Origin: Candidatus Cryosericum terrychapinii
Lineage (GTDB): Bacteria > Caldisericota > Caldisericia > Cryosericales > Cryosericaceae
NCBI RefSeq assembly: GCF_003570925.1
Contig: NZ_QXIS01000033.1
Span: 28,612-92,611 of the forward strand
Direction of reading: 5' to 3'
DNA: 64,000 bases
The position numbers and the translations under genes are program-made. This document shows positions 43,231-61,338 of the stretch, in pieces. The notes under the pieces are model-generated. The model was not told the origin of the DNA. It saw nothing but the letters and a program-made list of their open reading frames with translations, and did no database searches. The number at the start of each line of letters is the position of its first letter. Positions within the stretch are counted from its first letter, which is position 1.

Positions 43231-44379
43231 CTAGATCGTATCCGTTCCTGCATCTCTGATCCATACTGCCATGACGGGATCCACGAGGCGCCACTCCTTC
43301 TGCTCACGTTCAATGAGGTCCAGTACCTCGAGAGTCTTCATGGCCTTCGCCATGCCTGATGCAGACAGACCATATTGCTGCAGGTATTCGTGTGCCAAGG
43401 GCTGCGCCGTAGGATCAATGGCAAGACTGTTCAGCGCCCGTCGCTGGACGGGGGTAAGTCCCATCCACGTGGCTTGGAGGAATGATGTCTCGGAATGGAT
43501 CAGTTTATTCCATGCTGCATCGATGATTTCGTCAGTGCAAGCGGTCTCTGTCATGTTCCAGATAATGCCTGCGAGCTCTTGGACGTAGATGGGGTATCCG
43601 GCAGCACGGTCATAGATGGCAGAAGCCATAGCGGGACTGCACGTCTTGCCAGTATTGGAGAACTTCTGAACAATGTAGGGGACGAAGTCGGCGCTGCCGA
43701 TCCTATCGAGTGTCAGAAAGGTGGAGCTGCCGTAGAAGGGTCGATTCTTGCCAAACATGTCCATGAGCAGTTGCCGTCGGCTGCCTACATAGACGAAGGA
43801 GACGTCTTTCTGCATCGAAATGTGCTCACGCAGCGTTCCCTCAATCCTTTTTGACTCTGGGAGCGTACTTATTTCCTGAAACTCGTCGAACACACAGCAG
43901 GCCTTCCTGTGGTTCTTCTGAACGTAGCTGAGCAGACTTGCCATGATATCATCAAGCCCTGCGGCAGGCGATGTCCCGGGCGTCATGGCGGCAGAAACAC
44001 TCATCTCATTCTGACGTACAGTGAAGGTCACCGTGAAGCTCCCGAACAGGTTCGTAAGGCGTTTCTTGAAACTGCTCGGAGATGCCCCACGTCCGATGCC
44101 AGCGATGACCGCTCTTGCCAGCTTCATGACGAAGTCCTGCTCTGAGAGAACAGAGAAGAAGTCGGCATAGACCGTCAGAAAGTCCTGTTCGTGAAGGAGC
44201 ACAATAGCGCGGCGGGTGAGAGACGTCTTTCCGTAGCGGCGGGGAGAACTCAGAACGACGCTCTGTCCGCTCAGGACAAGATTTTCCAGCTGTGCTAGCT
44301 CCTTTGTCCTATCACAGAAATCGGCACCATCCGCAACGGTGGTGATGAACGGATTGCTCGTCCTTGAGCTTCTCTGCAT
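43231..44379 (-). CDS. AAA-family ATPase (archaeal-type ATPase, PF01637-like)
   Basis: About 382 residues. Walker A is SSPRRYGKTSLTRRA, Walker B ACCVFDEFQEI, sensor-like FVYVGSRRQLLMDMF; a winged-helix end follows (TPVQRRALNSLA, LSASGMAKAMKTLEVLDLIE). This is the plan of the ATPase_2/PF01637 group, which often occurs with mobile or defence genes and whose role is largely unknown. The ATG at 44379 (QRSSRTSNPF) has GGAGG nine bases upstream; the ATG at 44394 lies inside the iteron array. The gene is bracketed by related iterons on both sides. Confidence 0.85.
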   Translation of the reverse strand: MQRSSRTSNPFITTVADGADFCDRTKELAQLENLVLSGQSVVLSSPRRYGKTSLTRRAIVLLHEQDFLTVYADFFSVLSEQDFVMKLARAVIAGIGRGASPSSFKKRLTNLFGSFTVTFTVRQNEMSVSAAMTPGTSPAAGLDDIMASLLSYVQKNHRKACCVFDEFQEISTLPESKRIEGTLREHISMQKDVSFVYVGSRRQLLMDMFGKNRPFYGSSTFLTLDRIGSADFVPYIVQKFSNTGKTCSPAMASAIYDRAAGYPIYVQELAGIIWNMTETACTDEIIDAAWNKLIHSETSFLQATWMGLTPVQRRALNSLAIDPTAQPLAHEYLQQYGLSASGMAKAMKTLEVLDLIEREQKEWRLVDPVMAVWIRDAGTDTI

Positions 44380-44392
44380 GGCCAATTCCTCC

Positions 44393-44453
44393 ATTACGCG
44401 AATAGCGTTACGCCGATAGTGTTACACTAACAGCGTTACACCAATAGTGTAAT
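44393..44453. repeat. 14-bp iterons, promoter-proximal array (four units)
   Basis: Units GTTACRCCRATAGTG-like repeat every 14 bp from ATTACGC to GTGTAAT, related to 43011-43057. Their place right before the ATPase start makes them likely operator sites for its product. From here to 44682 I see a palindrome CTGCATGCAG (44652-44661) and nothing else. Confidence 0.75.
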
Positions 44454-44682: not shown

Positions 44683-45279
44683 ATGAGTATGCCGTACTGG
44701 GAATACTTCTTGGCAATCGAGCAGGATCTGGAGAAATGCACTAGGTACGTCCAATTCGATGTGAGGAACTACAAGGCCTATTCACTGGAATTCGCCAGAA
44801 TCATCGTGGCTAGCGGAGCCGAATGTGATACCGTCATGAAATCGCTGTGCAACTCCATTGATGATTCCGAAGATCCAGACAGTATTGGCTGGTATTTCCC
44901 CATAGTGAGTTCAGCGTACCCCAGGTTCACTGAGTATGAGATCAACATACCGCGATATGGATTGTCCTTCATGCCTTGGAAGGGTTGGTCTCCGACCGAT
45001 AGCCCTGATTGGTGGAAGAGTGCCTACAACAAGATCAAGCACGAAAGAGACCAGCACTTTGAGAGTGCGAACCTGGAGAATGCCATTCTGGCCACGGCTG
45101 CACTCTTGTCCACGTTGCTGTACTACTACGTGCAACTACGGTCGAAGGAGGAGGAGTCAAAGTGGACGACCTTCATCGACATTGACTATCTGCAATCGCC
45201 GAGGCTGCTCTCTCCCAAGCACTACGACAGGTTGTGGCAGGGGGCGGATATTCTGTGGGATTACGATATTCTGCGGTAA
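44683..45279 (+). CDS. Hypothetical protein, HEPN-like
   Basis: 198 residues, predicted cytosolic. The C-terminal half reads WWKSAYNKIKHERDQHFESA, then LENAILATAALLSTLLYYY. An N-x-x-K-H-x-R helix followed by a hydrophobic helix is common in HEPN-like proteins of defence loci. The strict R-x4-6-H order is not present, so nuclease activity is uncertain. AGGAGGGGG precedes the ATG. The gene is immediately upstream of the large frameshifted protein and may belong with it. Not assigned to a named family. Confidence 0.6.
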   Translation: MSMPYWEYFLAIEQDLEKCTRYVQFDVRNYKAYSLEFARIIVASGAECDTVMKSLCNSIDDSEDPDSIGWYFPIVSSAYPRFTEYEINIPRYGLSFMPWKGWSPTDSPDWWKSAYNKIKHERDQHFESANLENAILATAALLSTLLYYYVQLRSKEEESKWTTFIDIDYLQSPRLLSPKHYDRLWQGADILWDYDILR

Positions 45280-45473
45280 CCAGAGGACAGCCAATCGCGG
45301 AAGTCACTCCCATCGAGGAGTTCTGCGGTACGCGCTGTGGAGCGGATTCAGCACCTGTTCTCGTATCAGCGTTCACATGGCAACACTGACACGGTAGTGC
45401 TGGCGAGTCGATCGAGCTCGAGAGAAGTGCCGCTGGTGTACCAACGATGTCTGTGGTGGAGGCATGGAGAAGA

Positions 45474-48400
45474 ATGAGCAGAATCATTAGTGAACTGGAA
45501 CTGGATCAATGGGTCAGGAATCATCCGACGCCTGCAGAGAGCGCGGTTCCGGAGCTTCTGTTGCGTCTCGTCAGACAGTCCTGCCCGGGTGCCATCGAGA
45601 GACGCATCCCGATTGGCGACAGCATCGATCAACCTGGGCTCGATGGCATCCTTGTCACAGAGAGTGGTTTTGGCGCTTTCGTACCGAGAGGAAGATCCTG
45701 CTGGGAGATTGGGACCGGAGCGGATACAACAGCGAAGGCGACAGAGGACTACTCCAAACGAACCACCGAGAAGAACACGTCGGTTCCGGAGGACATAAGG
45801 GTGGAATCGACTTTTGTCTTTGTCTCGCCTCTTTCGGCACAGCGAGGTTGGCGAAGGGAATCCCAGTCAGAATGGCTGGCACAGCGAAGAGAACGGCACG
45901 AGTGGGCTGATGTCCGAATCCTTGACGGAACCGGGATTGTTGATTGGCTGGAAGATTTCCCGGAAGTCGAGTTGTGGCTCGCAGGACAAATGGGGATTCA
46001 TGTTGACCAGATCGAGCTCCCAAGTCAACGTTGGGAGAGGTTGTCTTCTGTTGGCGGCCACCGGCTCGTACCAGAACTGTATCTTGCAGGTCGTGAAGCC
46101 GTCTCGATCGCGCTGACAAAGGCGTTTGCCCATGAGCAAAAACAGTTGGAGATTGACACCCATTTCCCCGGTGAAGCAGTGGATTTCGTGTCAGCTTTCA
46201 TCGCGTCGAAGGAAGCAGGTGGAGAAGAACCGGCGCTTGATCAGTGCCTGATTGTCTCCGGAAGAGAAGCTTTTGACGAGATTGCGGGACTTGAGACAAC
46301 CAGGGTGTTGGTTCTCGACTTCCCGTTCGGTGACGACAGCACGATGACGTCTGCCATCGCACAAGCAGAATCGAAAGGAAATGTCGTTGTGTATGAAGGA
46401 ATACCGGGAGGGGAAGAAGACTGGCAAAGGGTGCTTCTGGCGAAGCCACGCAGGCATGCGATTGAAGAGAATCTTGTGAAGGCTGGTTACTCAGAAGAGC
46501 GAGCTCGGTTACTGGCACAGCAGAGTGATCAGAATCTGAGCGCTCTGCTCAGGCTGATTCAGGGCGTTGCAGCTACACCCGAATGGTCTCGCAGCGGAGA
46601 GGCTGCTGACCTCGCCTTGGCTCAGCTGGCAGGTGGATGGCATGAGGGTTTGCCGGCTGACAAGGCGGCAGTAGAAGAACTGTCAGGCAGGGACTACGCG
46701 ACCTGGGCGGCGAGACTCAGTGGATCATCGGTCAGCGAAGAAGCCCGATCGTCCGGAAGGGAAAGGTGTGGCAATTCGCCGCACGCTATGAGGGCTGGCG
46801 GTGTCTGGGCCGGCTGATTCACGATGAGGATCTTGGCAGGTTTCAGAAAGTCGCCATCGATGTCCTGAGTGAGCGGGATCCGCAATTCGACCTTCCGCCA
46901 GACAAGCGATTTGCAGCATCGATGTATGGCAAGACGCTCACGCATTCTTCCGAACTAAGGAAAGGGTTATCGGAGACGTTGGCGCTCCTCGGGAGCTACC
47001 CGAACGTGCTTACGTCATGCTCAGCGGGAAGCGCCGAGGGGACCACCACTCTCGTCGTCAGGGACGTTCTGTCAGGGGCAGGTTGGGACCGATGGGCAAG
47101 CGATGATGATGTTCTGCCGCTCCTCTCCGAAGCTGCGCCATTGGAGTTTCTAGATGTGGTGGACAAGGCTCTTCGCGTGTCGCCATGCCCTTTCGATTCT
47201 GTCTTTGCTCAAGAGGGGAAGGACCTGCTGACCGGAAGGAACTACATGACCGGTCTCCTCTGGGCGCTTGAAGGACTCGCATGGAATCGGGACTACTTCT
47301 CAAGAGTAGTGAGCATCCTGGGTGAACTGGCGCAACGCGATCCATCAGGAAACTCAGCGAACCGTGCAGCCAATTCCTTGGTGAGCATACTTCTGCCGTG
47401 GCTGCCCCAAACGACTGCTGCACTCGACCAGAAGAGAACAGCAGTTGAGGCCTTGTGCACGGCCCAACCGGGAGTTGCCTGGAGTCTTCTTCTCGCATTG
47501 CTTCCATCAACGCGCCAGGCCTCCTGGCCCTCTCACCGCCCTGTTTGGCAGACAGGGTGGATCCCTGACGACTGGCGCAGGGGCGTGACAACACGGGAGT
47601 ACTGGGATGCAGTGACTACATACGCTGGACTCGCAGTGCGCATGGCGAAAGGTGACCTGCACCGGCTTGCCGAATTGCTGGATCATGTGGACAGTCTGCC
47701 GCCCCAGACCTCAGACGATGTACTTGAGTATGTCATCTCGGATGCGGTCAGGTTGTTGCCTGAAGAGACCAGAGTGGACCTCTGGAACCGACTGATGAAG
47801 TTGACCGGCGAGAGCATCAGAGCACAAAGATCCCAACAACCAACGGACCAGAAGGTGCTGGAGAAGGTCAAAATGGCTGCAGAGAAGATCGGTCCGGTGT
47901 CTCCTTTCTACCGATATCAGCGCCTCTTCACTGACCGAGCACATGAGCTTTTCGATGGTCAAGGAAGCTACGAAGAGCAACGAAAACGCGTTGATCAAGA
48001 GCAACAGAAAGCTGTCAACGAAGTATACGGAGCCGACGGCTATGACGGTCTGCTCAGATTCGTCCGCGCTGCCCAGTCGCCGTCCCGGGTCGGATCTGCT
48101 CTGGGAGCTTGTGCTGATAGCATGATTGATGCACAAATCCTCCCCTCGTTGTTGGACTCCAAGGATTCTGCGATGGAACAGTTCCTCGGCAGTCTCATAT
48201 GGCGTAGGCACTTTGTGCTTGGCTGGGAATGGGCCGATGCTCTCGATGTCCGCTCTTGGACCCCCGATCAAAAGGCTCAATTCCTGGCGTATCTTCCCTT
48301 TGCGCCAGAAGCCTGGGAACGTGTCTCAAAGTGGTTAGGAGAAGACGAGTCCAGATACTGGATGAAGACTTCCGCGGAACCACGTGAAAGTGACACTGGG

Positions 48401-49276
48401 CTTGGAGAAGCCGCTGAAAACCTGCTTCGGGTTGGCCGCCCATTGGCTGCCCTGAGATGCCTTGAACACCTAGCCGTCGACAAGAAGGCGGTTGGCGGCC
48501 AGCTGGTTGTTCGCACGCTGAATGCAGCTGCGAGCTCCTCCGAGAAGCCCCACCAAGACGATGGATACGCTATCGTCCAGCTGATTGAGGTGCTGCAGAA
48601 CGATCTCACCGTGGAACGGGCAGATGTTGCCAGAATTGAATGGCTGTTTCTGCCTCTCCTTGAAGGCGGGCAGCACAGAGTGCTTGACCGCGAATTGGCG
48701 AAGAATCCCGGCTTGTTCTGCGAAGTAGTACAGATGGCATTCCGGTCTGGGAAGGAGGCGGATGCGCCTCGCAACCTGAATCAGCAGCAGCAGCACATGG
48801 CAGAGAATGGTTTTCGACTGCTCACTGAATGGCGAATTCCACCTGGACTGCACGAGGATGGTACATTTCATGGGGAAGAGTTGCTTTCTTGGTGGAACGA
48901 TGTGAAGGCGAGGTGCGCGGAATCCGGTCGTCTAGAGGTCGCCTTGGACATCGTCGGTCAAGTCCTTGTTCATGTTCCTCCGGATCCTGACGGCTTCTGG
49001 ATCGACAAGTCTGTTGCGCAAGCGCTTGACCAGAATGACGAGAGCGCTGAGTGCCTTCGTTCCGGGTTTGGCAGCGCAGTGATCAACTCACGAGGCGTCT
49101 ATTGGGGGAACCCTTCAGGCGAGGATGAAAGAGCCCTGGCAGCCAAGTACCGTCAGCAGGCCAGTGATCTGAATATGGAGGGACTCCCTCGCTTGGCAGC
49201 GACCTTGCAGGGAATTGCGAAGAGGTACGACCAGGAAGCGGGGGAAGTCGTGACACGCCATGAGTCGGAAGAGTAG
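45474..49276 (+). pseudogene. ~1270-residue defence-type protein with nuclease-like N-terminus, one frameshift
   Basis: Two long frames encode one protein. Part one (45474-~46740) starts SRIISELELDQWVRNHPTP. It has a restriction-endonuclease-like region (GLDGILVTESGFGAFVPRG, WEIGTGADTTAKATEDYSKR) and a segment resembling an NTPase but lacking a P-loop (LYLAGREAVSIAL, LEIDTHFPGEAVDFVSAF). Part two (~46740-49276) continues in another frame (PIVRKGKVWQFAARYEGW, then long helical sequence to the end). The change is between SGSSVSEE and SPIVRKGK, near 46730-46750. No slippery heptamer is obvious, so it is either a mutation or a sequencing error. Codon use is even across both halves. The family is known to me only as large uncharacterised proteins in defence islands. 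Confidence 0.7.
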
Positions 49277-49395
49277 TTGACATGAGGAACCTCCGTTGTC
49301 AGACTACCAAGAGAAATGACCGTGGTGTCGGTCTTCCGGCAGCCAATTGTGTAGCCGGATGAATGATCCGTAGAGGAGGGGGTGTCGAAATTAAC

Positions 49396-50241
49396 ATGAA
49401 CTCTGTCGGTTCAGCGGACACATGCGTTGCCGATTTTCGAAAGCGCTGGAGCATGACCCAGGTTCCAGCAGAGGCAATTGAGGACTTTCGAAACAGAGCA
49501 TTCGGCAGCATCAAGGAAGCCCTCGGAGGCTTGATACTAGATGATTCGTCGATATCGGACGCGTTCCTCCACGCGTTGGGGGAACCGGTGTCATCGGATG
49601 ATTGGGGGTACATCAACAAGCCGACGGAGACGCCACTCTGGCACGCCCTAGAGCGAAGAACTACGCTTCCCGAATTCGTTCTTGGACTTGAGGTCCTGTT
49701 TCACATCGGATTGGATGGTCGCGCGCAACAGGAATTGGCGAGGCTGTTGCGCAAGGACATTGTGGCTTCGGGAGTATCAGTCTCATGTGCCGAGAGCAAT
49801 GGCTACGTCACTTTCTACCCGGAAGGGGCACGGTTGCTTGACGAGCAGGTCATCAACGCTGATCTCACCTGGCTTGGTGCCTACCCGGAGGCTCTGAAGG
49901 CTTTTTCCGAGGCCCTCAGTGTGTACGGCTCGTCCAGCCAGCACAGACACATGCTCGATTGCCTTAGAGTGTGTATTGAAGAGCTAGCTAGGAAGTTGTT
50001 GGGGAATGATCTGTCCCTGGAGAAGAACACCGTCGGCTTGTTGGCGCTTCTTGGGCCCGTGCTAAGCAAAGAGACGCGGAACATGACTCGCGTGCTGCTC
50101 GACTACTACACCAGATACCAGAACGAACACGTCAAGCACCACGATGACTGGACGCCAGTCGAGGTTGCATTCATCCTGTATCTCACTGCGACGTTCGTCT
50201 ACCTGCTGATTGCGGCGCGTCGGGAAGATGGCCATGACTAG
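49396..50241 (+). CDS. Hypothetical HEPN-like protein
   Basis: 281 residues from the ATG at 49396 (NSVGSADTCVADFRKRW), with a GAGGAGGGGG box ~16 bases upstream; the exact start is uncertain. The C-terminal part holds RVLLDYYTRYQNEHVKHHDD, in which RYQNEH fits the HEPN ribonuclease motif R-x4-6-H, followed by a hydrophobic helix (VAFILYLTATFVYLLIAA). HEPN proteins cleave RNA in abortive-infection and toxin systems. It follows the large protein by ~120 bp in the same direction, so joint function is plausible. Confidence 0.65.
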   Translation: MNSVGSADTCVADFRKRWSMTQVPAEAIEDFRNRAFGSIKEALGGLILDDSSISDAFLHALGEPVSSDDWGYINKPTETPLWHALERRTTLPEFVLGLEVLFHIGLDGRAQQELARLLRKDIVASGVSVSCAESNGYVTFYPEGARLLDEQVINADLTWLGAYPEALKAFSEALSVYGSSSQHRHMLDCLRVCIEELARKLLGNDLSLEKNTVGLLALLGPVLSKETRNMTRVLLDYYTRYQNEHVKHHDDWTPVEVAFILYLTATFVYLLIAARREDGHD

Positions 50242-51720: not shown

Positions 51721-54700
51721 TTACTGCGTCGTGTACACACTGTGTCCAGCGCCATAGTAGGCTTCATAGACGTGCTGGAACACGGCGGAGGACTTCTGCT
51801 CGAACAGCTGTGGCGTGTAGGCCTTTGGTAGGCCCTGGTCCAGCAGCTTCTCGATAGTCACTCGTACCGCGGCTCGGGATTGCTGACGTTTGCGCCAATC
51901 AAGCACCAGCTTCGCCTCTTTGAGCGTGACCAGCAGTTTCCGGGCAGTTACCTTCACCTTATCGCGGTCGGCAGCGCCCATATCAATAGGTGGCTTGGTC
52001 AAGAGATCGAAGACTGCCAGCTCTTCTTCACTTAGTTGCTCGCTCACGCCCCGTCGTTCTTCCTCGCTCAGCTCCCTGTTGAAAGCATCCAGTTGATGAA
52101 AGAACTCCTCGGCGTTGAGACTGCCAGCGTTGTATGCGTCGATCATCGCCTGGAACCGCTCCACATAGTCCATGCGCGTGCGGTTAAGTCGCACCATACC
52201 CACGAGTTTCTGTGCCACTGCGCCTTTCAGCTTCTCGTTGAGCGTGCGCTTGTGGCCTGTCTTGAACTGCTCCGCCAGCTTCTCGAAGTCGATCTTGCTC
52301 AGGTCGACGAAACGCTCGTAGTCGTCGGCAGCACTTGCCTTGACGACGTAGCCCTCAGCAGCAATCGACTGGTCAAGTAGACCCTCCACATCCTGCATGA
52401 CCTCAGAGATGTCTGCAGGCGGTATCAGAGCCCGGATCTTGTAGGCAATGACCTCAACGGGATTCACTTCTGCGGCAAACTCCTGCGCAGACGGATCGGG
52501 CAGCACGGCCTGGAGAAGACGCTGGACGCTGTTGGCAAGATCAAGATAGCGGCGCTTGACCTCTTCGGACGTGACTAGTGCCTCTACCGCGTCATCAAGC
52601 AAGCCGACCCGCGAGAAGCCTTGGGCGCTCTGGATGGCCGTGAGACTCACTCCCCGTTCCTGACACAAGCTACGGGTTTCTGCGAGCGACTGTCGCAATG
52701 CCGCCACCAGCGCAGCCTTGTCCTCTACCGGTTTGTCGCCCCCCTTGCCTGCACCATAGATGGCCAGGGCGGCCTCCAGGTTGCGAAAAACCCCCACGTA
52801 GTCCACAATGAGGCCGCTCACCTTGCCAGGATAGACCCGGTTGGCTCGAGCGATCGTCTGCATCAGTGTGTGGTTGCGCATCGGCTTGTCGAGGTAGATG
52901 GTCGAACAGTTCGGCACGTCAAACCCGGTCATCCACATCGCGCAGACGAACACCAGACGGAAGGGGTCCTCCGGATCCTTGAACTTCGTTTCCAGGTCCT
53001 CCTCGACTATGCGTTTGCGGTGTGGACGGATGTCCAGCCCCTTCTCTGCCATATCGGCGATCTCGTTCTGCCCCTGAGAGACGACCACTGCCATGTCTGT
53101 TTCCTGCATCCGTGCGATCTGTTGTTCGATCTCCTGTCGAGTAAGATCATCGGCCACAGCCAGCTGTGCCGTCAACTGCGCAATCTTACTAGCCCAGTGC
53201 CTCTTCACCTTGTCGTACATGCGAATGGCCGTGGCTTTGTCGATCGAGACGACCATGGCCTTGCCCTGGAAGCCCCGGCCTGTGAAATGTGCCACCAAGT
53301 CTTTCGCCACCGATTCTAGCCGATCGTCACGGGTGATCAGGTGGTACTCGCGCGCGAACTCTCGTTCCAACGCCTTCTCCTGGCCCTCATCCAGTTCCGC
53401 CTCTTCCAACAACCGCTCCATATCCTCATTGAGGTTGTCATTGACCAGCTGCAGTTCAGGAATGCGATTTTCGTAGTAGAGAGGAACCGTCGCATGATCG
53501 ATCACCGATTGCTGGAAGTCGTAGACGCTGACATAGTCCCCGAATACCTGGCGGGTCTTCTCCTCGCCGACGATCAGTGGCGTGCCGGTGAAAGCCAGAA
53601 AAGAAGCGTTGGGCAGGGCCGTGCGCATGTTCAACGCCAAGGTGTCGTACTGGCTGCGGTGTGCCTCATCCGTGATGACGATGATGTCGCTGCGCTCCGA
53701 CAGTACCGGGTGCGGTTCGCCTTGTTCGGTGCGAAACTTGTGGATCAGCGTGAACACGTAACGGTGGTCTTCAGTGAGAAGTCTCCGCAGATGCATGCTG
53801 CTTTCCGCTTGGGCGTGGGCTTCGGTCACAACCCCAGCCGAGGCGAAGCTCTTGTAGATCTGAGCATCCAGTTCCTGGCGGTCCGTTACCACCACGAAGG
53901 TCCAGTTGCCCGGTATCTTCCGTAGTACCTTCTGGGCGAAGAACATCATCGACACGCTCTTGCCGCTGCCCTGCGTGTGCCAGAAGACCCCCAGCTTGCC
54001 CTTGCGTTGCCGAATATCGGTCAGCGCTTCCAGCGCGTTATTGACTCCCAGGTACTGGTGGTTCTTGGCCGTCAGTTTGATCAGTCCGCCGCGTACCTCC
54101 TGGAAGAGGGTGAAGTTCTCCACCAGGTCCAACAGCCGCGTCGGATCGCAGACGCCACGGAGCATGGTTTCCAGTGACACTTGTCCCGTCTCGCCTTCGC
54201 TGTCGATCTTCTTCCATTCGGCGAAGTGCTCCCAGCCCGCGGTCACGCTGCCCACGCGGCTCTCACTCCCATTGGAGAGGATGATCAGAGCGTTGGGCCA
54301 GAACAACTGTGAGATCGTGTCCTTGTAGTCACGCAGATTGTCGGCGAATGCGGTCTCCAGACGGCGGTGGGCAGCTTTCAACTCGATGAACACGAGTGGA
54401 AGGCCGTTGACAAAGCCCACCAGGTCGGCCCGGCGCGTGTACATCTCCCCGGTGACCCAAAACTGCGAACAGAACAGCAAGTCGTTGTTGGTCGGCTCTT
54501 CCCAATCAATTATGTGCACGACTTCTACCGTTTCGCCGTCCCCCTCGGGATTGGGAACAGGGACGCCCACGCCGCTCTTCAGCAAGTGGTAGATCTCGCG
54601 GTTGGCAGCCACCAGGCTCATGCGTGAACGGTCACGGGTCAACTCCTCGATGGCCTGATCGATAGCCTCGGGCGATGCATCCGGATTGAGCCGCCGCAGG

Positions 54701-54873
54701 GCAGGTCGCAACCGTTTGGTGAGAATGACCTCGGCTCGAGTTTCACGACCGAGCGTGCTCGCGCCATGGTCGAACTCATGGTAGGCGTTGAGTGTCTCCC
54801 AACCCAGTCCTGCCAGCAGGTCGACGGCGGGCCGCTCTACCAAGGCGTCCTCCGTGTAGCCGGCGGGGCTCAT
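51721..54873 (-). CDS. hsdR: Type I restriction enzyme, motor/nuclease subunit HsdR
   Basis: 1050 residues, normal for HsdR. The N-terminal nuclease domain (HSDR_N) has VIIDWEEPTNNDLLFCSQF-type strands, LVGFVNGLPLVFIELKA with the catalytic E-x-K, and a supporting Asp. The SF2 translocase follows with Walker A TQGSGKSVSMMFF (~306) and DEAH box TDEAHRSQYD (~401); motif VI is QTIARANRV. The C-terminal helical part binds the methyltransferase. It cuts DNA far from unmethylated sites after ATP-driven translocation. The start overlaps the end of the Schlafen-like gene (ATGA), so all four genes of the locus form one operon read leftward. Confidence 0.95.
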   Translation of the reverse strand: MSPAGYTEDALVERPAVDLLAGLGWETLNAYHEFDHGASTLGRETRAEVILTKRLRPALRRLNPDASPEAIDQAIEELTRDRSRMSLVAANREIYHLLKSGVGVPVPNPEGDGETVEVVHIIDWEEPTNNDLLFCSQFWVTGEMYTRRADLVGFVNGLPLVFIELKAAHRRLETAFADNLRDYKDTISQLFWPNALIILSNGSESRVGSVTAGWEHFAEWKKIDSEGETGQVSLETMLRGVCDPTRLLDLVENFTLFQEVRGGLIKLTAKNHQYLGVNNALEALTDIRQRKGKLGVFWHTQGSGKSVSMMFFAQKVLRKIPGNWTFVVVTDRQELDAQIYKSFASAGVVTEAHAQAESSMHLRRLLTEDHRYVFTLIHKFRTEQGEPHPVLSERSDIIVITDEAHRSQYDTLALNMRTALPNASFLAFTGTPLIVGEEKTRQVFGDYVSVYDFQQSVIDHATVPLYYENRIPELQLVNDNLNEDMERLLEEAELDEGQEKALEREFAREYHLITRDDRLESVAKDLVAHFTGRGFQGKAMVVSIDKATAIRMYDKVKRHWASKIAQLTAQLAVADDLTRQEIEQQIARMQETDMAVVVSQGQNEIADMAEKGLDIRPHRKRIVEEDLETKFKDPEDPFRLVFVCAMWMTGFDVPNCSTIYLDKPMRNHTLMQTIARANRVYPGKVSGLIVDYVGVFRNLEAALAIYGAGKGGDKPVEDKAALVAALRQSLAETRSLCQERGVSLTAIQSAQGFSRVGLLDDAVEALVTSEEVKRRYLDLANSVQRLLQAVLPDPSAQEFAAEVNPVEVIAYKIRALIPPADISEVMQDVEGLLDQSIAAEGYVVKASAADDYERFVDLSKIDFEKLAEQFKTGHKRTLNEKLKGAVAQKLVGMVRLNRTRMDYVERFQAMIDAYNAGSLNAEEFFHQLDAFNRELSEEERRGVSEQLSEEELAVFDLLTKPPIDMGAADRDKVKVTARKLLVTLKEAKLVLDWRKRQQSRAAVRVTIEKLLDQGLPKAYTPQLFEQKSSAVFQHVYEAYYGAGHSVYTTQ

Positions 54874-56303
54874 GATTGCGATTCCTTATCAGAGTTTTCA
54901 AGAATACTGCGTCCAGTCGCGGTGGTGCGATACCGTTGCTTCGAGCTGCGGGGTTTGTCAGGAATGGTCATCTCAATAAGACCGGCACTTATGAGCGGAT
55001 TGATGACTTGGTCCCTGAACTTGGTCCTGTTGGTTCGACCGGCAAGTACCAGCAACTCGCCTATTGAACTGTCTTGCAGGCATTTGTCGAGGATTCGAAC
55101 TTGGTCCCGACTTGGTCCCGACTTGGTCCCGACTTGCGGGGCGGATTCCACCGTCTCATGGGCCTCTTCATGTCCGGCAACAGCAACAATCGGCCGGAAC
55201 ACGGCCGTGAAGAACCCATCCATGGCAAACACCGGTTCTGGATACCCCTGCTCCCTGGCCCCTTCACGCATCCGCCGAATACCCGTACCAGCCTTCTCGA
55301 TAAAAGCGATGCGGTGCAGCAGATCCGCAATCAGCGGGTTGCGGCGCACGCTCTTGCTTCCGAGATCTTCGGGAAGCATCCCCTTTGGGAGACCGCCGGG
55401 ACTCGATATTTCGATGCGATCCTCGTAAATCTCGACAAAGACATTGGCTCCCTCTATGAACCAGTCCCGGTGCATGACAGCATTAGTGATGGCCTCGCGC
55501 AGTGCGGCCACGGGATATTCTGGAATCTCCTCACGCTGGAGCTTCTCGATCCGGTAGGCCGTGCGGGTGTTGCGCTCGATGAACCGCAGACTGTCCTCGA
55601 TGTCGGCGACAACGCCCCCGGCAAAATCCTTGCGGTCCAGAATATGAACCTTGCTCGTTCCCATGAACAGCAGACAGGTGACATAGGCCTGATTGAAGAA
55701 CCGTCGCGGCTCACGGGCAAAGAAAAGCACCCCTGCGTTGTGGAAGAGCAGCTTGCCGCCCGAGCGTTCTGCCGCCTCGATGTTCACCAGGATGTCCTCC
55801 ACCGAGCCGCCTTGGGAGATCGTGCTCTTCCGCAGCCAGTCGCTGAATTTATCCGGATCGAAATCATCAGGATAGCGGAAGCGCGTGCAAATGGATGAAT
55901 CGAAGCGGATGGCTCCAACCTGTTGGAAGAGATCACGGATCTCTTCGCGGGAGAGCTTCTGACTCATGGCACCTTGCCGCACGAAGAAACCATCGCTGCA
56001 TTGCACCGGTTTCGCGTCACTCTCGCGGACCGTCACCGCGGTTACCTCGCCAATGCGCTGAAGCAGGATCTTTATCGGCGGATCGCAGTTGCGGGCAATG
56101 TCCTGGATCTGGGCGCGCAACCTGTTGCTATCTGCAATGCCCCGAACAGTACCATCATCCCGGACGCCAAGCAGGATCCGGCCGCCAACGGTGTTGGCGA
56201 AAGCAACAAGCTCGCGGGCGAAGGAATCGGACAGCGCTTCCTTGTACTCTAGAGTGACCCCCTCGCCCTCCTGGAGTAGTATGGCAAGATCAGCGGCTGT
56301 CAT
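54870..56303 (-). CDS. Schlafen/AlbA_2-domain ATP-binding protein of the restriction operon
   Basis: 477 residues. The N-terminal AlbA_2 (Schlafen-like) domain reads EGVTLEYKEALSDSFARELV, AFANTVGGRILLGVRDDG. A HATPase_C_4 region contains REAITNAVMHRDWF and EIYEDRIEISSPGGLPKGML. A linker (~385-405) and a winged-helix end follow. Such genes often sit between hsdS and hsdR in type I loci and are thought to modulate the system; their exact role is unsettled. The gene overlaps hsdS and hsdR by 4 bp each. The linker is encoded by 11-bp tandem repeats (55099-55136), whose copy number would change the frame. Confidence 0.85.
   Translation of the reverse strand: MTAADLAILLQEGEGVTLEYKEALSDSFARELVAFANTVGGRILLGVRDDGTVRGIADSNRLRAQIQDIARNCDPPIKILLQRIGEVTAVTVRESDAKPVQCSDGFFVRQGAMSQKLSREEIRDLFQQVGAIRFDSSICTRFRYPDDFDPDKFSDWLRKSTISQGGSVEDILVNIEAAERSGGKLLFHNAGVLFFAREPRRFFNQAYVTCLLFMGTSKVHILDRKDFAGGVVADIEDSLRFIERNTRTAYRIEKLQREEIPEYPVAALREAITNAVMHRDWFIEGANVFVEIYEDRIEISSPGGLPKGMLPEDLGSKSVRRNPLIADLLHRIAFIEKAGTGIRRMREGAREQGYPEPVFAMDGFFTAVFRPIVAVAGHEEAHETVESAPQVGTKSGPSRDQVRILDKCLQDSSIGELLVLAGRTNRTKFRDQVINPLISAGLIEMTIPDKPRSSKQRYRTTATGRSILENSDKESQS
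55099..55136. repeat. 11-bp tandem repeat inside the Schlafen-like gene
   Basis: ACTTGGTCCCG occurs three times in a row (55099-55131), followed by a partial fourth (ACTTG). Because 11 is not a multiple of three, gain or loss of one unit shifts the reading frame of the C-terminal ~95 residues. Confidence 0.85.
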
Positions 56304-57562
56304 GCTGAGGTCCCCTCGGGAACTGCGATGTCTAGGTCTGCCACGTCTATCTCGCCGGAGACGAGTCGGGGTAGCAGTAGATCTCTGGTACGGCGGAGGA
56401 TTAGGTTTTGCTGCTGAAGAGTCAGCATAAGCTCCATGAAGTCCGTCGCAGCATGTCCGAACTGCTGAACGATCTCTCGGGGAGGGCAGATCGTAAGGAT
56501 GCGACTCAGGCCATCATTCGTCAGTGAGCGCTGCGTGGCCCCGGTGCAGTACCGGTCCTTTTCCTGGTGGAATTCCCTTGATGCTATCGTCAGGAACAAG
56601 AACGGAAGAGAATCCTCGTCAGCCGCTACGAATCCCGCAAAACCCGAAGAGAGCATAGCATTCGCGGCCAAGGCAGCGTTGGGCCTCGCTACTGCAAGCA
56701 CTTTGTATGTCTCCTGCATCCGCGCAAACCAGACTGAGTTGAGTAGTGGCTGCTTCTGTGCCCGACTTGGCTTCTGCTTATACGCGTAGTCGACACCGTC
56801 GCTGACTATCGTGATTCCATCGATGTCCGCTGTGGCATGGTACCGCTTCGTGCCCACGTAGGGCCCAACGTTCTGATCGATGAAGTTCCAGTTGCCGTTG
56901 TCCATCGCGCCCTTCACTTCCCAGCCCTCTGGAATCTGGCCGAGAGGAGAGTCTATGAAACGAGCATCCTGGCCACCAGGATAACGGAACTTGACGAACC
57001 ACTCGCGGTAGAGATTCTGCGCCATGTCCTCAAGAATCTCGATTCGCCGAAGGTCATTCTCGATCAGACTTTCATAGGGCAAGAGAATGCCGGCGATTTT
57101 GCTTTGGTCTGCAACATCCGGTAATGGAAGCTTGATATGAGCGATGCTCTTGAGACTGATAGTAGGCTGTGATGCTCCGCCCACCAAGGAGTCGATCTGT
57201 TGCCTGACAAACGGCGTATTGAGACAGCAGTATAGAAAGTACGGGACCGATCTGCCCGGGTCGGGTGTTATGCACACCGTGTTCTGACCCAAACAGAATT
57301 CCTGCTCTCGATCAACAAAGCACGAGTTGCCATATGAACCGACTCTTGAGAAGAGAATATCGCTGGCTCGGGGCCTGTGACGTTCGATGAACTCTTGGTA
57401 GGTCTCATCCTGAACCTTCAACGTTCTCGACAAGTCGAGGAAACCACGCTTGATGTCCGTCACTCTAACCATGGGATACCCGTCCTCAGAATATGCAGGG
57501 GTCTTGTGCAGACAGTCCCACAGGGTAGCAATGGAACCAAGTTCTGCCTCTGGATATGCCAT
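56300..57562 (-). CDS. hsdS: Type I restriction specificity subunit HsdS
   Basis: 420 residues with two target-recognition halves. The first starts AELGSIATLWDCLHKTP and has YPMVRVTDIKRGF, ILFSRVGSYGNSCFVD, LGQNTVCITP. The conserved spacer helix follows (LPLPDVADQSKIAGILLPYE to LIENDLRRIEILEDMAQNLY). The second half (GQIPEGWEV onward) ends with a matching helix (LTLQQQNLILRRTRDLLLPR). It sets the DNA sequence recognised by both methylase and nuclease; the target cannot be read from sequence alone. It starts 2 bp after hsdM ends and overlaps the next gene by 4 bp. Confidence 0.92.
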   Translation of the reverse strand: MAYPEAELGSIATLWDCLHKTPAYSEDGYPMVRVTDIKRGFLDLSRTLKVQDETYQEFIERHRPRASDILFSRVGSYGNSCFVDREQEFCLGQNTVCITPDPGRSVPYFLYCCLNTPFVRQQIDSLVGGASQPTISLKSIAHIKLPLPDVADQSKIAGILLPYESLIENDLRRIEILEDMAQNLYREWFVKFRYPGGQDARFIDSPLGQIPEGWEVKGAMDNGNWNFIDQNVGPYVGTKRYHATADIDGITIVSDGVDYAYKQKPSRAQKQPLLNSVWFARMQETYKVLAVARPNAALAANAMLSSGFAGFVAADEDSLPFLFLTIASREFHQEKDRYCTGATQRSLTNDGLSRILTICPPREIVQQFGHAATDFMELMLTLQQQNLILRRTRDLLLPRLVSGEIDVADLDIAVPEGTSA

Positions 57563-57564
57563 GT

Positions 57565-59109
57565 TTACCCAACTATCCTTGCCACGTTCTCGGCAATCCG
57601 CTCCTGCAACTCAAGGGCCTCGGTATTGAGAGCTTCCAGTTCCTCGTTCTGCTCCTCCAGCCATTCCCTGAAGTCAGAGTGCTCTTCCGCTCGGGTGGCC
57701 GCGCCTACGTATCGCGCGGGGTTCAGACACCAGCTCTGTGCTTCGATCTCGGATATCGTCGCGACCTTGCACAGGCCCAGCACGTCGGCATACTTGCGAT
57801 CAGGGAAGTACTCTGCCATCAATTTCGCGCTGTCGTGCAGCTCCTCTGGCTGCTCTCCTCGGTAGAGTCGGGCAATGTTGGCCAGAAACTCTATCTGCGC
57901 CAGAGTCCAGTCGCGGTGAGCACGGTCAATCTGGCGGTAGAGGTGGCGAGCGTCGATGAAGAGCACGTTGTCCGCCCGAACAGTCTTGTGCTTGCTCTTA
58001 TCCAGGAACCAGAGTGTACAGGGCAGAATCACGGTATAAAAGAAGTTGGGGGCAACTGCTACCATCACATCGACCGCTCGAGCCTCGACCAGTTGCCTGC
58101 GAATTTCGAGCTCGGAGCCTCTGGCATCAGCAGCCGAGTTGGCCATGACAAATCCAGCGCGACCGCTGCCATTGAGGGCACTGTAGAACAGCTGGATCCA
58201 GAGGTAGTTGGCATTGTCTGCCCTAGGTAGACCAAAGGGAAAGCGCGGGTCGTTCTTGAGCCGATCCTTGTCTACTCCATTCACGTTGAAGGGTGGATTG
58301 GCCATGACGAAATCGAACTTGCCGCTAGAATGGTGCAAGTCTTCGTAGTAGGTGTTCCCTTCCCTAATGTCACCAGCTAAGCCATGCACGGCTAGGTTCA
58401 TCTTGGCCAGACGCACCGTCTCGGACACCTTTTCCTGCCCATAGATACTCAGTTCAGCATTGGGGTTCTTCTTGCGTCCCTCAACGAAGCGCGCGCTCTG
58501 CACAAACATGCCGCCAGACCCACTGGCTGGGTCGAACAGGAGACCGCGGTAGGGTTCGATGATGTTGACGATGAGTTGGACGATGGCAGTAGGAGTGAAG
58601 AACTCGCCACCCTTTTGACCCTCGCTCATGGCGAATTGGCCAAGGAAGTACTCATAGACCTTGCCGAAGGCGTCCCCCTCAATGTCCGTGGGGATGGAAT
58701 TCATGGCCTTGAGCAATTCCTTGAGCAGGGCGTTGTCAAAGCGGTTGTAGGTCTTGGGCAGCACGTCCTTGAGGTCGGGGTTCTCCGCCTCGATGGCGCG
58801 CATGGCATCGTTAATGGCCGCGCCGATGTTGGTCCCTTCCGGCAGTCGGATCAGCGTCGAGAAACGCGCCGCGTCGGGCAGATAAAGCACGCCTCTTTCC
58901 TGATAGTCCACCGGTCCGACCTTCCGCCGGCCGCCGCCTTGACCGGCCAATTCCTTCGCCGCCGACTGGAATTTGTGATCGGCATAGCGCAGAAAGACCA
59001 GCCCCAACACCGGGACGGCGTATTCCGAGGACTTCAGCCTGGAATTGGCTCGCAGTTCATCGGCTGCTCCCCACAGGCGGGATTCAATGTTGTTGCCATT
59101 ATGATTCAC
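57565..59109 (-). CDS. hsdM: Type I modification methyltransferase HsdM
   Basis: 514 residues from the GTG at 59109 ([19 protein letters not shown]), which has GAGGGGG four bases upstream; an earlier start would add ~76 non-conserved residues. An N-terminal helical domain (HsdM_N) precedes an N6-adenine methylase domain with the SAM motif [14 protein letters not shown] (~191) and catalytic NPPF in [10 protein letters not shown] (~271). The C-terminal coiled coil ([20 protein letters not shown]) contacts HsdS. It is the first gene of the operon. It methylates host DNA to protect it from HsdR. Confidence 0.95.
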
Positions 59110-59437
59110 GACGCCCCCTCGGTAGATTGGAACTCCTTTGGAGTATAGCACTGCACAGCGGAAACGCGCACATGAGAAGGTCCCACGGAATGGGGATGGA
59201 GAGACCCCACATTTGGTCTGGATCTGAGTCAGTCGCTGGTCGGAACGTAGGATCGGAATGGGACACTTACAGACTATACTGGTGCATACGACAACGGGCT
59301 TGAGTGTCTGCGGTTGTCTGCCCCGAGTCGCGGACAACGTACCGTCAGGTTCGCTGACGATTCAGGGCTGGAGTAAGGTTCAGCAGAATGCATGGGGCGC
59401 GGCAACATCCATTGGTTTCTAGACCGAAGGAGGACCA

Positions 59438-60415
59438 GTGTTCGGAATTGGACCATTCACGATGCTTGACTGTGCTGATTGCCAGCGGGGACAGTCACTC
59501 TCACTGTCCCCCGAAGAAGCCGACCGTTCGCGGAAAGACATGAGAACCTTCCTTGCCAGCAACTGGCGTTGCCCCGTATGCGGCAAGGAATGGTCGGTCC
59601 AGGAGGCCATGATCCAAGGATTAATCAGCAGCCACCAGGGCGCTTCAATGAATGTGGTAGGCAACATACTTCTTCATGGAAAGACAACTGTTGCCACGGG
59701 GATAGAGAGAGTGGTCGAGCTTGCCCAAGAAGTACCTCTGATTCTTGGCGTGAACTTCACGCCGTGGGGCAAGTATGCCAGGCTTGGTTGGGTTTCAGCC
59801 GGTAAGGACAAGTTCATCATTACCAGCTCGACTATTACAGCAACGGCCGGTCAGGATCCGAAGAGATATGCAGGGCTTGGAGAAGAGCTGGACGTAGATT
59901 GGATGTTGAGTGGGAGATCGAACTGGAGCAACCTAGACGTTCCGGTCTGGCAAATCGTTCTCATTCAGGCCAGAGAACAGCTGGACCGAAAAGGGTATAG
60001 CCTGTCTATTCTTAGCAGCGTCGTCGCTTTGGAGGCCTTTGTGGGCGCAATTATCACCGGCGCGTTTCATGATGCTGGAGTCGAGAAGAAGGTCTCGGAT
60101 ATTGTTTTGGAGCATACATCTGGCATTACCCGAAAGATTGACTCCTTGCTGCCAAGCATTGCTGGGATCTCGCTCAAGAAGTCAGGACTACGAGGCCGCT
60201 TGGGAGATGTGATCGAACGTCGAAACGAGATCGTACATGGTGACGTAGCAGAGTCAACAGAAGGGGATGCGCGCGAGGCATTTGAGGTATGCGTGCGCAC
60301 CATATTTCATCTACTTGTCCAATCCTTGAATGCAGACGCAACACGCTCGGCGAGAGAACAGCGGCTTCGCAGCAAATCGGCTAGTGGAGACCTCGGCATG
60401 GAGTCGCGAGCTTGA
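59438..60415 (+). CDS. Zinc-ribbon protein with HEPN-like C-terminal domain
   Basis: 325 residues. Two CxxC pairs (LDCADCQRG and WRCPVCGKEW) near the N-terminus suggest a zinc ribbon. The middle is unassigned. The C-terminal ~130 residues look like a HEPN domain: SSVVALEAFVGAIITGAF, then GRLGDVIERRNEIVHGDV, with RNEIVH fitting R-x4-H. It is divergent from the restriction operon, sharing the ~330-bp region between them. A role as an RNA-cleaving defence effector is an inference from motif and context. GAAGGAGGA precedes the ATG. Confidence 0.65.
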   Translation: MFGIGPFTMLDCADCQRGQSLSLSPEEADRSRKDMRTFLASNWRCPVCGKEWSVQEAMIQGLISSHQGASMNVVGNILLHGKTTVATGIERVVELAQEVPLILGVNFTPWGKYARLGWVSAGKDKFIITSSTITATAGQDPKRYAGLGEELDVDWMLSGRSNWSNLDVPVWQIVLIQAREQLDRKGYSLSILSSVVALEAFVGAIITGAFHDAGVEKKVSDIVLEHTSGITRKIDSLLPSIAGISLKKSGLRGRLGDVIERRNEIVHGDVAESTEGDAREAFEVCVRTIFHLLVQSLNADATRSAREQRLRSKSASGDLGMESRA

Positions 60416-60654
60416 TAATACCTGGGCGTACACGGCACATGGCGCACGGCCTATTGCCGACACCGTATCGTCTTGGTTTCGCCTAGTGTCTCATAGCAGT
60501 CAGTGCCAAATCCAAATCGGATACTAGAGAGGCACCTCGTTCACTAGGAAACGAGGAAAACGGAAGGTTCGGAGAAGCTACTTGTCTTTTCGCTTTGCTC
60601 GCAGTATATTGCTGTGCAGGCAGAACATCGAGAAACTGGAAAGCGGAGGAGAGA

Positions 60655-61338
60655 GTGCTTGGCAACTACAGAGCGTACTGCGACGAAAGCAGTCATCTCG
60701 AACACGATGGACTCCGTGCTATGGGCCTTGGGGTTCTGTGGTGCCCTGAAGAAAAGACAGGAGAGGCAAACCATGCAATCCTGGAACTGAAACGAGTCCA
60801 CGGCATTGCTCAGACAGCTGAACTCAAGTGGACAAGAGTGTCCCCAGCGAAACTGGATTTCTACCAAGCGCTCATAGACTACTTCCTCAATACCACATAC
60901 CTGAACCTTCGGGTACTAATTGTTCCGGACAAGTCTGTGCTGAACCACGCTGCATGGCACCAGACACACGACGATTGGTACTACAAGATGTACTATGTCG
61001 CCCTGAAACATGTGCTCCAAAGATGCCTGAGCTGTGATGTCTTCCTAGACTACAAGGACACTCATGGTGGGCCCAAAGTCCGCAAGCTGAGAAAGTATCT
61101 CGCAGGCGTAGTCTCGAGTAGCATTGCCGTCCAGACAGTGCGGTCCGATGAAGTCCCCCTGGTGCAACTCGTGGATCTACTGCTCGGTGCCGTAACGGCC
61201 GCGAATCGCGGTGACGTAGCCAGCGCCGCGAAGCTTGCACTGATCGAGCAACTTCGCCGGGGATTGCACAGTGACCTGCGAACCGAAAGCAGCTACAGTG
61301 CAACGAAGTTCAACATGTTCCTATGGCCCTCGTCTTGA
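60655..61338 (+). CDS. DUF3800 protein
   Basis: 227 residues. The GTG at 60655 has GGAGGAG four bases upstream and leads into LGNYRAYCDESSHLEHDG, the DUF3800 opening with its conserved D-E pair. CDVFLDYKDTH and VPLVQLVDLLLGAVTAA supply the later acidic residues of the RNase H-like core. The family is common in phage and defence regions and is suspected to act on nucleic acid; activity is unproven. It overlaps the next gene by 16 bp. Confidence 0.8.
   Translation: MLGNYRAYCDESSHLEHDGLRAMGLGVLWCPEEKTGEANHAILELKRVHGIAQTAELKWTRVSPAKLDFYQALIDYFLNTTYLNLRVLIVPDKSVLNHAAWHQTHDDWYYKMYYVALKHVLQRCLSCDVFLDYKDTHGGPKVRKLRKYLAGVVSSSIAVQTVRSDEVPLVQLVDLLLGAVTAANRGDVASAAKLALIEQLRRGLHSDLRTESSYSATKFNMFLWPSS

Follow-up and report, generated by a model that had tools for sequence, protein, structure and literature searches.

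A frame-broken nuclease–solenoid gene in Candidatus Cryosericum terrychapinii points to a widespread, unnamed family of putative modular immune receptors

Results

The window, by which we mean the whole 64,000-nucleotide stretch of the Candidatus Cryosericum terrychapinii genome under study, contains at 45474–49276 a split gene that probably encodes, in decaying form, a modular anti-phage sensor–effector, a function that we infer for it. For the family as a whole, we lean towards a superfamily, widespread and unnamed, of modular immune receptors that work independently of NTP. Each would combine a solenoid sensor and a docking segment with one of seven or more exchangeable effectors, either fused to the solenoid or coupled to it, and some copies, housed in type I restriction or BREX operons, would add a second line of defence there.

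Anatomy of the split gene

Two open reading frames on the forward strand make up the gene. ORF1 (45474–46817) encodes the effector half, that is, a restriction endonuclease (REase)-like domain, an inactive STAND domain and a docking segment, and ends in an out-of-frame tail past the break; it could start at 45447 or 45474, and the starts of homologs agree better with 45474. ORF2, in the −1 frame relative to ORF1, stays open over 46661–49276 and overlaps ORF1 by ~150 nt; its earliest possible start is GTG 46766. The joined product of ~1267 residues can be aligned over its full length with intact homologs of ~1270 residues encoded by one ORF, bearing out the original prediction of one large ~1270-residue protein split by a single frame change. 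Terminator, promoter and Rfam searches contributed nothing.

The PD-(D/E)XK-like nuclease domain (45474–45983, +) carries the motifs G55-x-D57-G58, W77-E78-I79-G80 and K88-A89. D57, E78 and K88 are invariant in 34 of 34 aligned N-termini, the window copy included, as are G55, G58, W77, I79, G80 and A89. These residues, and the presence of MspJI among the structural matches, recall PD-(D/E)XK nucleases, whereas K88 lies ten residues beyond E78 and not at the classical E-x-K spacing. An alpha/beta domain of inactive STAND/AAA+ type, devoid of Walker A, follows (46020–46559, +). The best structural matches of the N-terminal model (419 residues, pLDDT 86, pTM 0.78) were the AAA+/STAND proteins RFC, CED-4 and NRC1 NB-ARC, with MspJI for the first domain. 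Because the best E values were 0.003–0.06 and none passed E 0.001, the assignment of the N-terminus to an REase-like domain plus an AAA+/STAND fold is only probable. To this extent the model agrees with the REase-like N-terminus and the NTPase-like region without a P-loop that had been read from the DNA. A Walker A motif was found in the STAND region of none of the 87 non-redundant homologs, and three matches to a relaxed Walker A pattern all lie in the solenoid motif 'AA.I.GK'.

Common to all effector classes is the docking segment 'A..LA.A.L.G.W.E....D...E.L.G' (46598–46690, +), which stands immediately before the solenoid. The alpha-solenoid scaffold itself comprises ~840 residues (46692–49276, +; frame open from 46661), and its model (836 residues, pLDDT 84, pTM 0.76) is nearly all helical, as the predicted long helical C-terminus had implied. 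Its nearest solved structures are generic karyopherin- and HEAT-type solenoids (TM ~0.2) with no sequence relation to it, and the structural search with the solenoid returned no viral relative. The solenoid is absent from Pfam and NCBIfam and was recognised by no repeat-family model tried; apart from HTH domains, sequence searches of Pfam, NCBIfam and PDB returned nothing meaningful for the window protein or the rest of its family. The structure models were built without plasmid-record sequences.

One nucleotide is missing from the window gene

In all 31 homologs of the window's own class (type-1 nuclease with inactive STAND) that have the motif, the stretch running from a conserved Tyr to the Leu of '(S/T)PL' measures exactly 19 residues. 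In the window gene, 47 nt separate the Tyr codon (46695) and the Ser codon of 'SPI' (46742), compared with a homolog spacing of 48 nt; exactly one nucleotide is missing within 46695–46742 (+). The break had been placed near 46740, and this interval confirms a single frame change while setting it slightly upstream. Recent inactivation, a sequencing error and recoding had been offered as causes, and the first of these is now moderately favoured.

We counted, leaving one row out at a time, deviations at sites conserved in at least 95% of the other rows. The window solenoid deviates at 14 of 115 sites (12%, against a median of 1.8%; second of 77 rows) and the window N-terminus at 11 of 55 (20%, against a median of 1.7%; first of 34 rows), a loss of conserved residues 7–12 times the family median. 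The deviations fall on both sides of the break, none being in the catalytic motif, and the sister copy L011 retains the consensus at 23 of the window's 25 deviating sites. This excess loss speaks more for relaxed selection and true decay than for an isolated sequencing error. Since the window branch in the solenoid tree is long (0.88, versus 0.53 for L011), the loss may partly reflect branch length, and our confidence that the gene is a decaying copy under relaxed selection is moderate. The full-length protein is probably no longer made in the Candidatus Cryosericum terrychapinii genome.

A sequencing or assembly error in a gene that is intact in the organism is the strongest competing explanation and a real, if lesser, possibility. 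The assembly is incomplete (37 contigs, 81% completeness), the missing nucleotide is the only lesion in frames that are otherwise open, and similar single breaks occur in other draft assemblies (L013, L088 and L081). Against such an error stand the near-invariant sites lost in both halves, mostly unlike the sister copy, a pattern that fits relaxed selection preceding the break. It is improbable that the window gene has become a functional two-gene form of the kind found naturally at seven homologous loci (L049, L065, L067, L075, L079, L094 and L096). A purine-rich stretch does lie directly upstream of GTG 46766, but natural splits start the solenoid at the domain boundary, whereas the window's first start falls ~24 residues inside it; moreover, ORF1 terminates in out-of-frame residues, splits are absent among the type-1 homologs and conserved sites are being lost in the window copy. 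Programmed −1 frameshifting to a full-length protein, for which the overlap of the two frames might speak, can practically be set aside: the window gene has no correctly phased slippery heptamer, its sole X-XXY-YYZ-like heptamer (46759) being out of phase and too late for the change of frame that is needed, and all 31 comparable homologs read through the site with no frame change, so that the lesion is an indel and not recoding.

The solenoid family is widespread and recently mobile

ORF2 is 47% identical to its counterparts in two congeneric genomes (Candidatus Cryosericum odellii and hinesii; L100 and L101) and 42% identical to one on the Shewanella baltica plasmid pSBAL17501; relatives also occur in one further genome (42%) and in 22 plasmid records, mostly inside one longer frame. 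A first contig scan with a single sequence as query found no relative, and distant members, once aligned, proved too variable for use as a scan query. When 84,980 species genomes were scanned with the guidance of a profile, the solenoid was found in at least 147 of them, and 80 of these loci were fetched; 10 loci came from viral contigs. The non-redundant loci analysed number 87. Most homologs are single proteins and 7 of the 87 loci are naturally two genes, so the homologs are not always two separate proteins.

Hosts of the solenoid include Proteobacteria, Desulfobacterota, Verrucomicrobia, Planctomycetota, Gemmatimonadota, Chlorobiota, Nitrospirota, Cyanobacteria, Firmicutes, Bacteroidota, Acidobacteria, Elusimicrobia and methanogenic archaea, among others. 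Copies in Modicisalibacter, Oceanimonas, deltaproteobacterial and Opitutales genomes (L022–L025) are 75–88% identical to the Shewanella plasmid copy, an identity across unrelated hosts that points to very recent transfer across phyla. In E. coli, a form with a second nuclease type is intact in 7 of 5,426 complete genomes, beside prophage remnants, and a GapS6a-paired form is present in seven complete genomes, the example examined sitting in a P2-like prophage. Accessions for E. coli are WP_000182525 for the nuclease-type protein and WP_000346951/WP_001299565 for the pair with GapS6a. The effector part is frame-broken in three other draft genomes (L013, 499–4036; L088, 145–3655; L081, 9008–12496), and inactivation or assembly breaks are thus recurrent in the family.

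In the literature covered, which lies outside bioRxiv and most subscription journals, the family is not described, and the DefensePredictor main text makes no mention of the accessions of the E. coli members, one of which may nevertheless have been tested before. A named-system search in PADLOC (2023 version) left the window family without a name, and later naming is possible. The family is widespread, unnamed in the libraries searched (PADLOC 2023, Pfam and NCBIfam) and probably anti-phage.

Effectors are exchanged on a constant solenoid

At least seven N-terminal effectors are found on the solenoid: two nuclease types, a Ser/Thr kinase, two HEPN-like types, a PNP phosphorylase and the GapS6a adaptor. 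The window class, a type-1 nuclease with inactive STAND, accounts for 42 of the 87 non-redundant loci, in seven of which it stands behind an HTH domain. The second nuclease type is fused to the solenoid at 26 of the 87 loci and has conserved E21, D61-D62 and Q81-x-K83; a PDB search with it gave no match. Members with other effectors lack the inactive STAND. At 7 of the 87 loci a solenoid-only gene lies right behind a separate effector gene, the two overlapping or being a few bases apart. There, the docking segment ends the effector protein and the solenoid begins within 1–2 residues; these loci are split at the solenoid boundary and never within the solenoid.

The rarer effectors were assigned as follows. 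The L096 effector is a Ser/Thr kinase like PD-T4-6 (E 1e-93), that of L081 is a PNP phosphorylase (PNP_UDP_1, E 8.5e-13), L070 and L089 have a DUF4145/HEPN-like domain (E 2e-4) and, by motif reading only, L079 and L065 have a protein with an RX4H HEPN-type motif. A HetE-N/GapS6a protein (129–139 bits against an NCBIfam cut-off of 90) serves L009, L108, L109 and the E. coli locus L124.

When eight effector classes were placed on a tree of the solenoid alone, at least 10 changes of effector were counted (minimum 7; shuffled mean 39), the deeper nodes being unsure because this was a quick tree with four long branches. HEPN-type L070 and L089 are nested within the second-nuclease group, and the L070 solenoid is 75% identical to those of the nuclease-type L068 and L050 while its N-terminus is unrelated.

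Homologs occur in restriction and BREX operons

Seven copies of the family lie in type I operons, 0–30 nt from hsdS or overlapping it (L011, L013, L040, L072, L073, L087 and L090), and three are located between pglX and pglZ-brxL in BREX loci (L070, L089 and L093). PADLOC identified six HsdS and four PglX proteins among the 113 nearest neighbours. By comparison, in a set of 83 genes lying beyond 6.5 kb, neither HsdS nor PglX was among the 25 most frequent models; these distant genes included two type I methylases and a single BrxB, Zorya and Cas7, as expected for defence islands. The majority of homologs are solitary on plasmids, prophages or islands, with no diagnostic partner. The association with defence genes is clear, and the placement in hsd operons and BREX loci supports the description of the window product as a defence-type protein.

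The database name 'helix-turn-helix transcriptional regulator' and the N-terminal HTH of seven homologs would suit a family that is regulatory and not defensive, but there is little to recommend that view: the HTH is an addition behind which the nuclease motif is kept, and other members have kinase, HEPN-like or PNP domains instead and sit within restriction–modification and BREX operons.

Comparison with named systems

PD-Lambda-4 A (~1283 aa; Vassallo et al. 2022, PMC9519451; PADLOC PDLC03991) appears to be the nearest named system, though weakly so, as a remote collinear relative whose sequence similarity is at the detection limit. It shares with the window protein its length, the order of nuclease, STAND and helical C-terminus, the linker 'D..KL..WL...P....W' and a short collinear stretch of solenoid. 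The similarity reached E 2e-6 for A7 and E 3e-6 for A8, with an hhalign probability of 58%. That the window protein belongs to PD-Lambda-4 and is not a separate family is unlikely, despite the common domain order and the collinear weak profile matches. The PADLOC PD-Lambda-4_A model scored it at 16–17 bits (E 1e-4 to 3e-4, partial coverage), as opposed to ~2500 bits for true members; the P-loop GLSGVGKT is present in 6 of 6 A proteins (L114–L119) and in the STAND region of 0 of 87 window-protein homologs; and PADLOC found no PD-Lambda-4 B match among the window genes scanned. The window protein may function like PD-Lambda-4 A, yet we do not class it as a member, and the statement that this architecture matches no named system stands.

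The likeness to GAPS6 (NCBIfam NF047935, antiphage_GapS6a), a comparison made by the NCBIfam name alone, is that L009, L108, L109 and L124 have a GapS6a gene directly upstream of a solenoid, which in these loci bears an HSGxGDNV-type tag. GapS6a differs in that it also pairs with unrelated tagged proteins that have no solenoid: at least four different partners, each starting HSGxGDNV-like, were seen (L127, 4076–5378, minus strand; L128, 4001–7684; L129, 4001–7811; L130, 1417–4334), from which GapS6a looks like a shared adaptor. The tag, as far as these sequences go, looks like an adaptor code by which many effectors or sensors are paired with one small protein. Pfam and PADLOC gave no GapS6a/HetE-N match among the window genes scanned.

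Avs and other STAND NTPase immune receptors have a swappable N-terminal effector, a central STAND fold and a C-terminal superhelical sensor. The solenoid family likewise joins swapped N-terminal effectors to a C-terminal superhelix that stays constant, and an exchangeable effector, a conserved docking segment and a conserved superhelix together are an immune-receptor design. The solenoid family differs in that its STAND is inactive or absent, with no intact Walker A, and in that its solenoid matches no repeat-family model tried. The iSTAND components of BREX and MoxR-vWA systems have a STAND fold without Walker motifs and stand beside effectors (PMC12839542, PMC7159879). The window effector class resembles them in its probable STAND/AAA+ fold with Walker A lost, but here the domain is flanked by the nuclease and the large solenoid, and members with other effectors do not have it.

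Proposed mechanism

In the mechanism that we propose, the constant ~840-residue alpha-solenoid probably detects a component of the invader, while the interchangeable N-terminal effector, in the window a PD-(D/E)XK-like nuclease with an inactive STAND domain after it, is probably kept inactive against the solenoid through the ~30-residue docking segment. Once it has sensed the invader, the solenoid would set the effector free or rearrange it. The nuclease form would then cut DNA (or RNA), and released effectors in general would damage nucleic acid (nucleases, HEPN) or nucleotide pools (PNP) or modify proteins (kinase), the outcome, from direct restriction to abortive infection, presumably being set by the effector. 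Since all members lack a P-loop, we do not expect them to hydrolyse nucleotides. With the STAND inactive or absent, activation probably proceeds by ligand-driven rearrangement of the solenoid and not by nucleotide exchange.

If this is correct, a common design of immune receptor, with an exchangeable effector and a superhelical sensor, needs no NTPase switch to operate in bacteria and archaea, and the pattern of effector swapping would make the solenoid a bait for new effectors. The window locus is modest in itself; the family, widespread and directly testable, matters more. Since intact members exist in E. coli genomes, tests in a laboratory host are immediate, and one experiment on an E. coli member could open the whole family.

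The neighbourhood of the window gene

The window gene was described as sitting between two HEPN-like genes. Flanking genes are indeed present, the downstream one (49363–50241, +) matching the PADLOC candidate PDC-S32 (E 1e-29). The upstream one (44683–45279, +; 198 aa) is HEPN-like by motif reading only, family-model searches having given no match. Neither is conserved as a partner: no match to either was found in the homolog loci scanned, some of which have short flanks, and the suggested constant HEPN partners did not appear. HEPN-like domains occur in other members of the family as swapped effectors (L079, L065, L070 and L089), not as partners of the window gene.

An adjacent type I restriction–modification locus (51721–59337, −) comprises hsdR (51721–54873), an AlbA-like gene (54870–56303), hsdS (56300–57562) and hsdM (57565–59337). 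The AlbA/Schlafen-like gene, predicted to be ATP-binding, lies between hsdR and hsdS with a 4-bp overlap on each side. Next to hsdM, a gene with a weak RiboL-PSP HEPN match (59438–60415, +) and one for a DUF3800 protein (60595–61338, +) lengthen the defence island, at the opposite edge of which lies a gene for an archaeal-type ATPase_2 protein (43231–44394, −).
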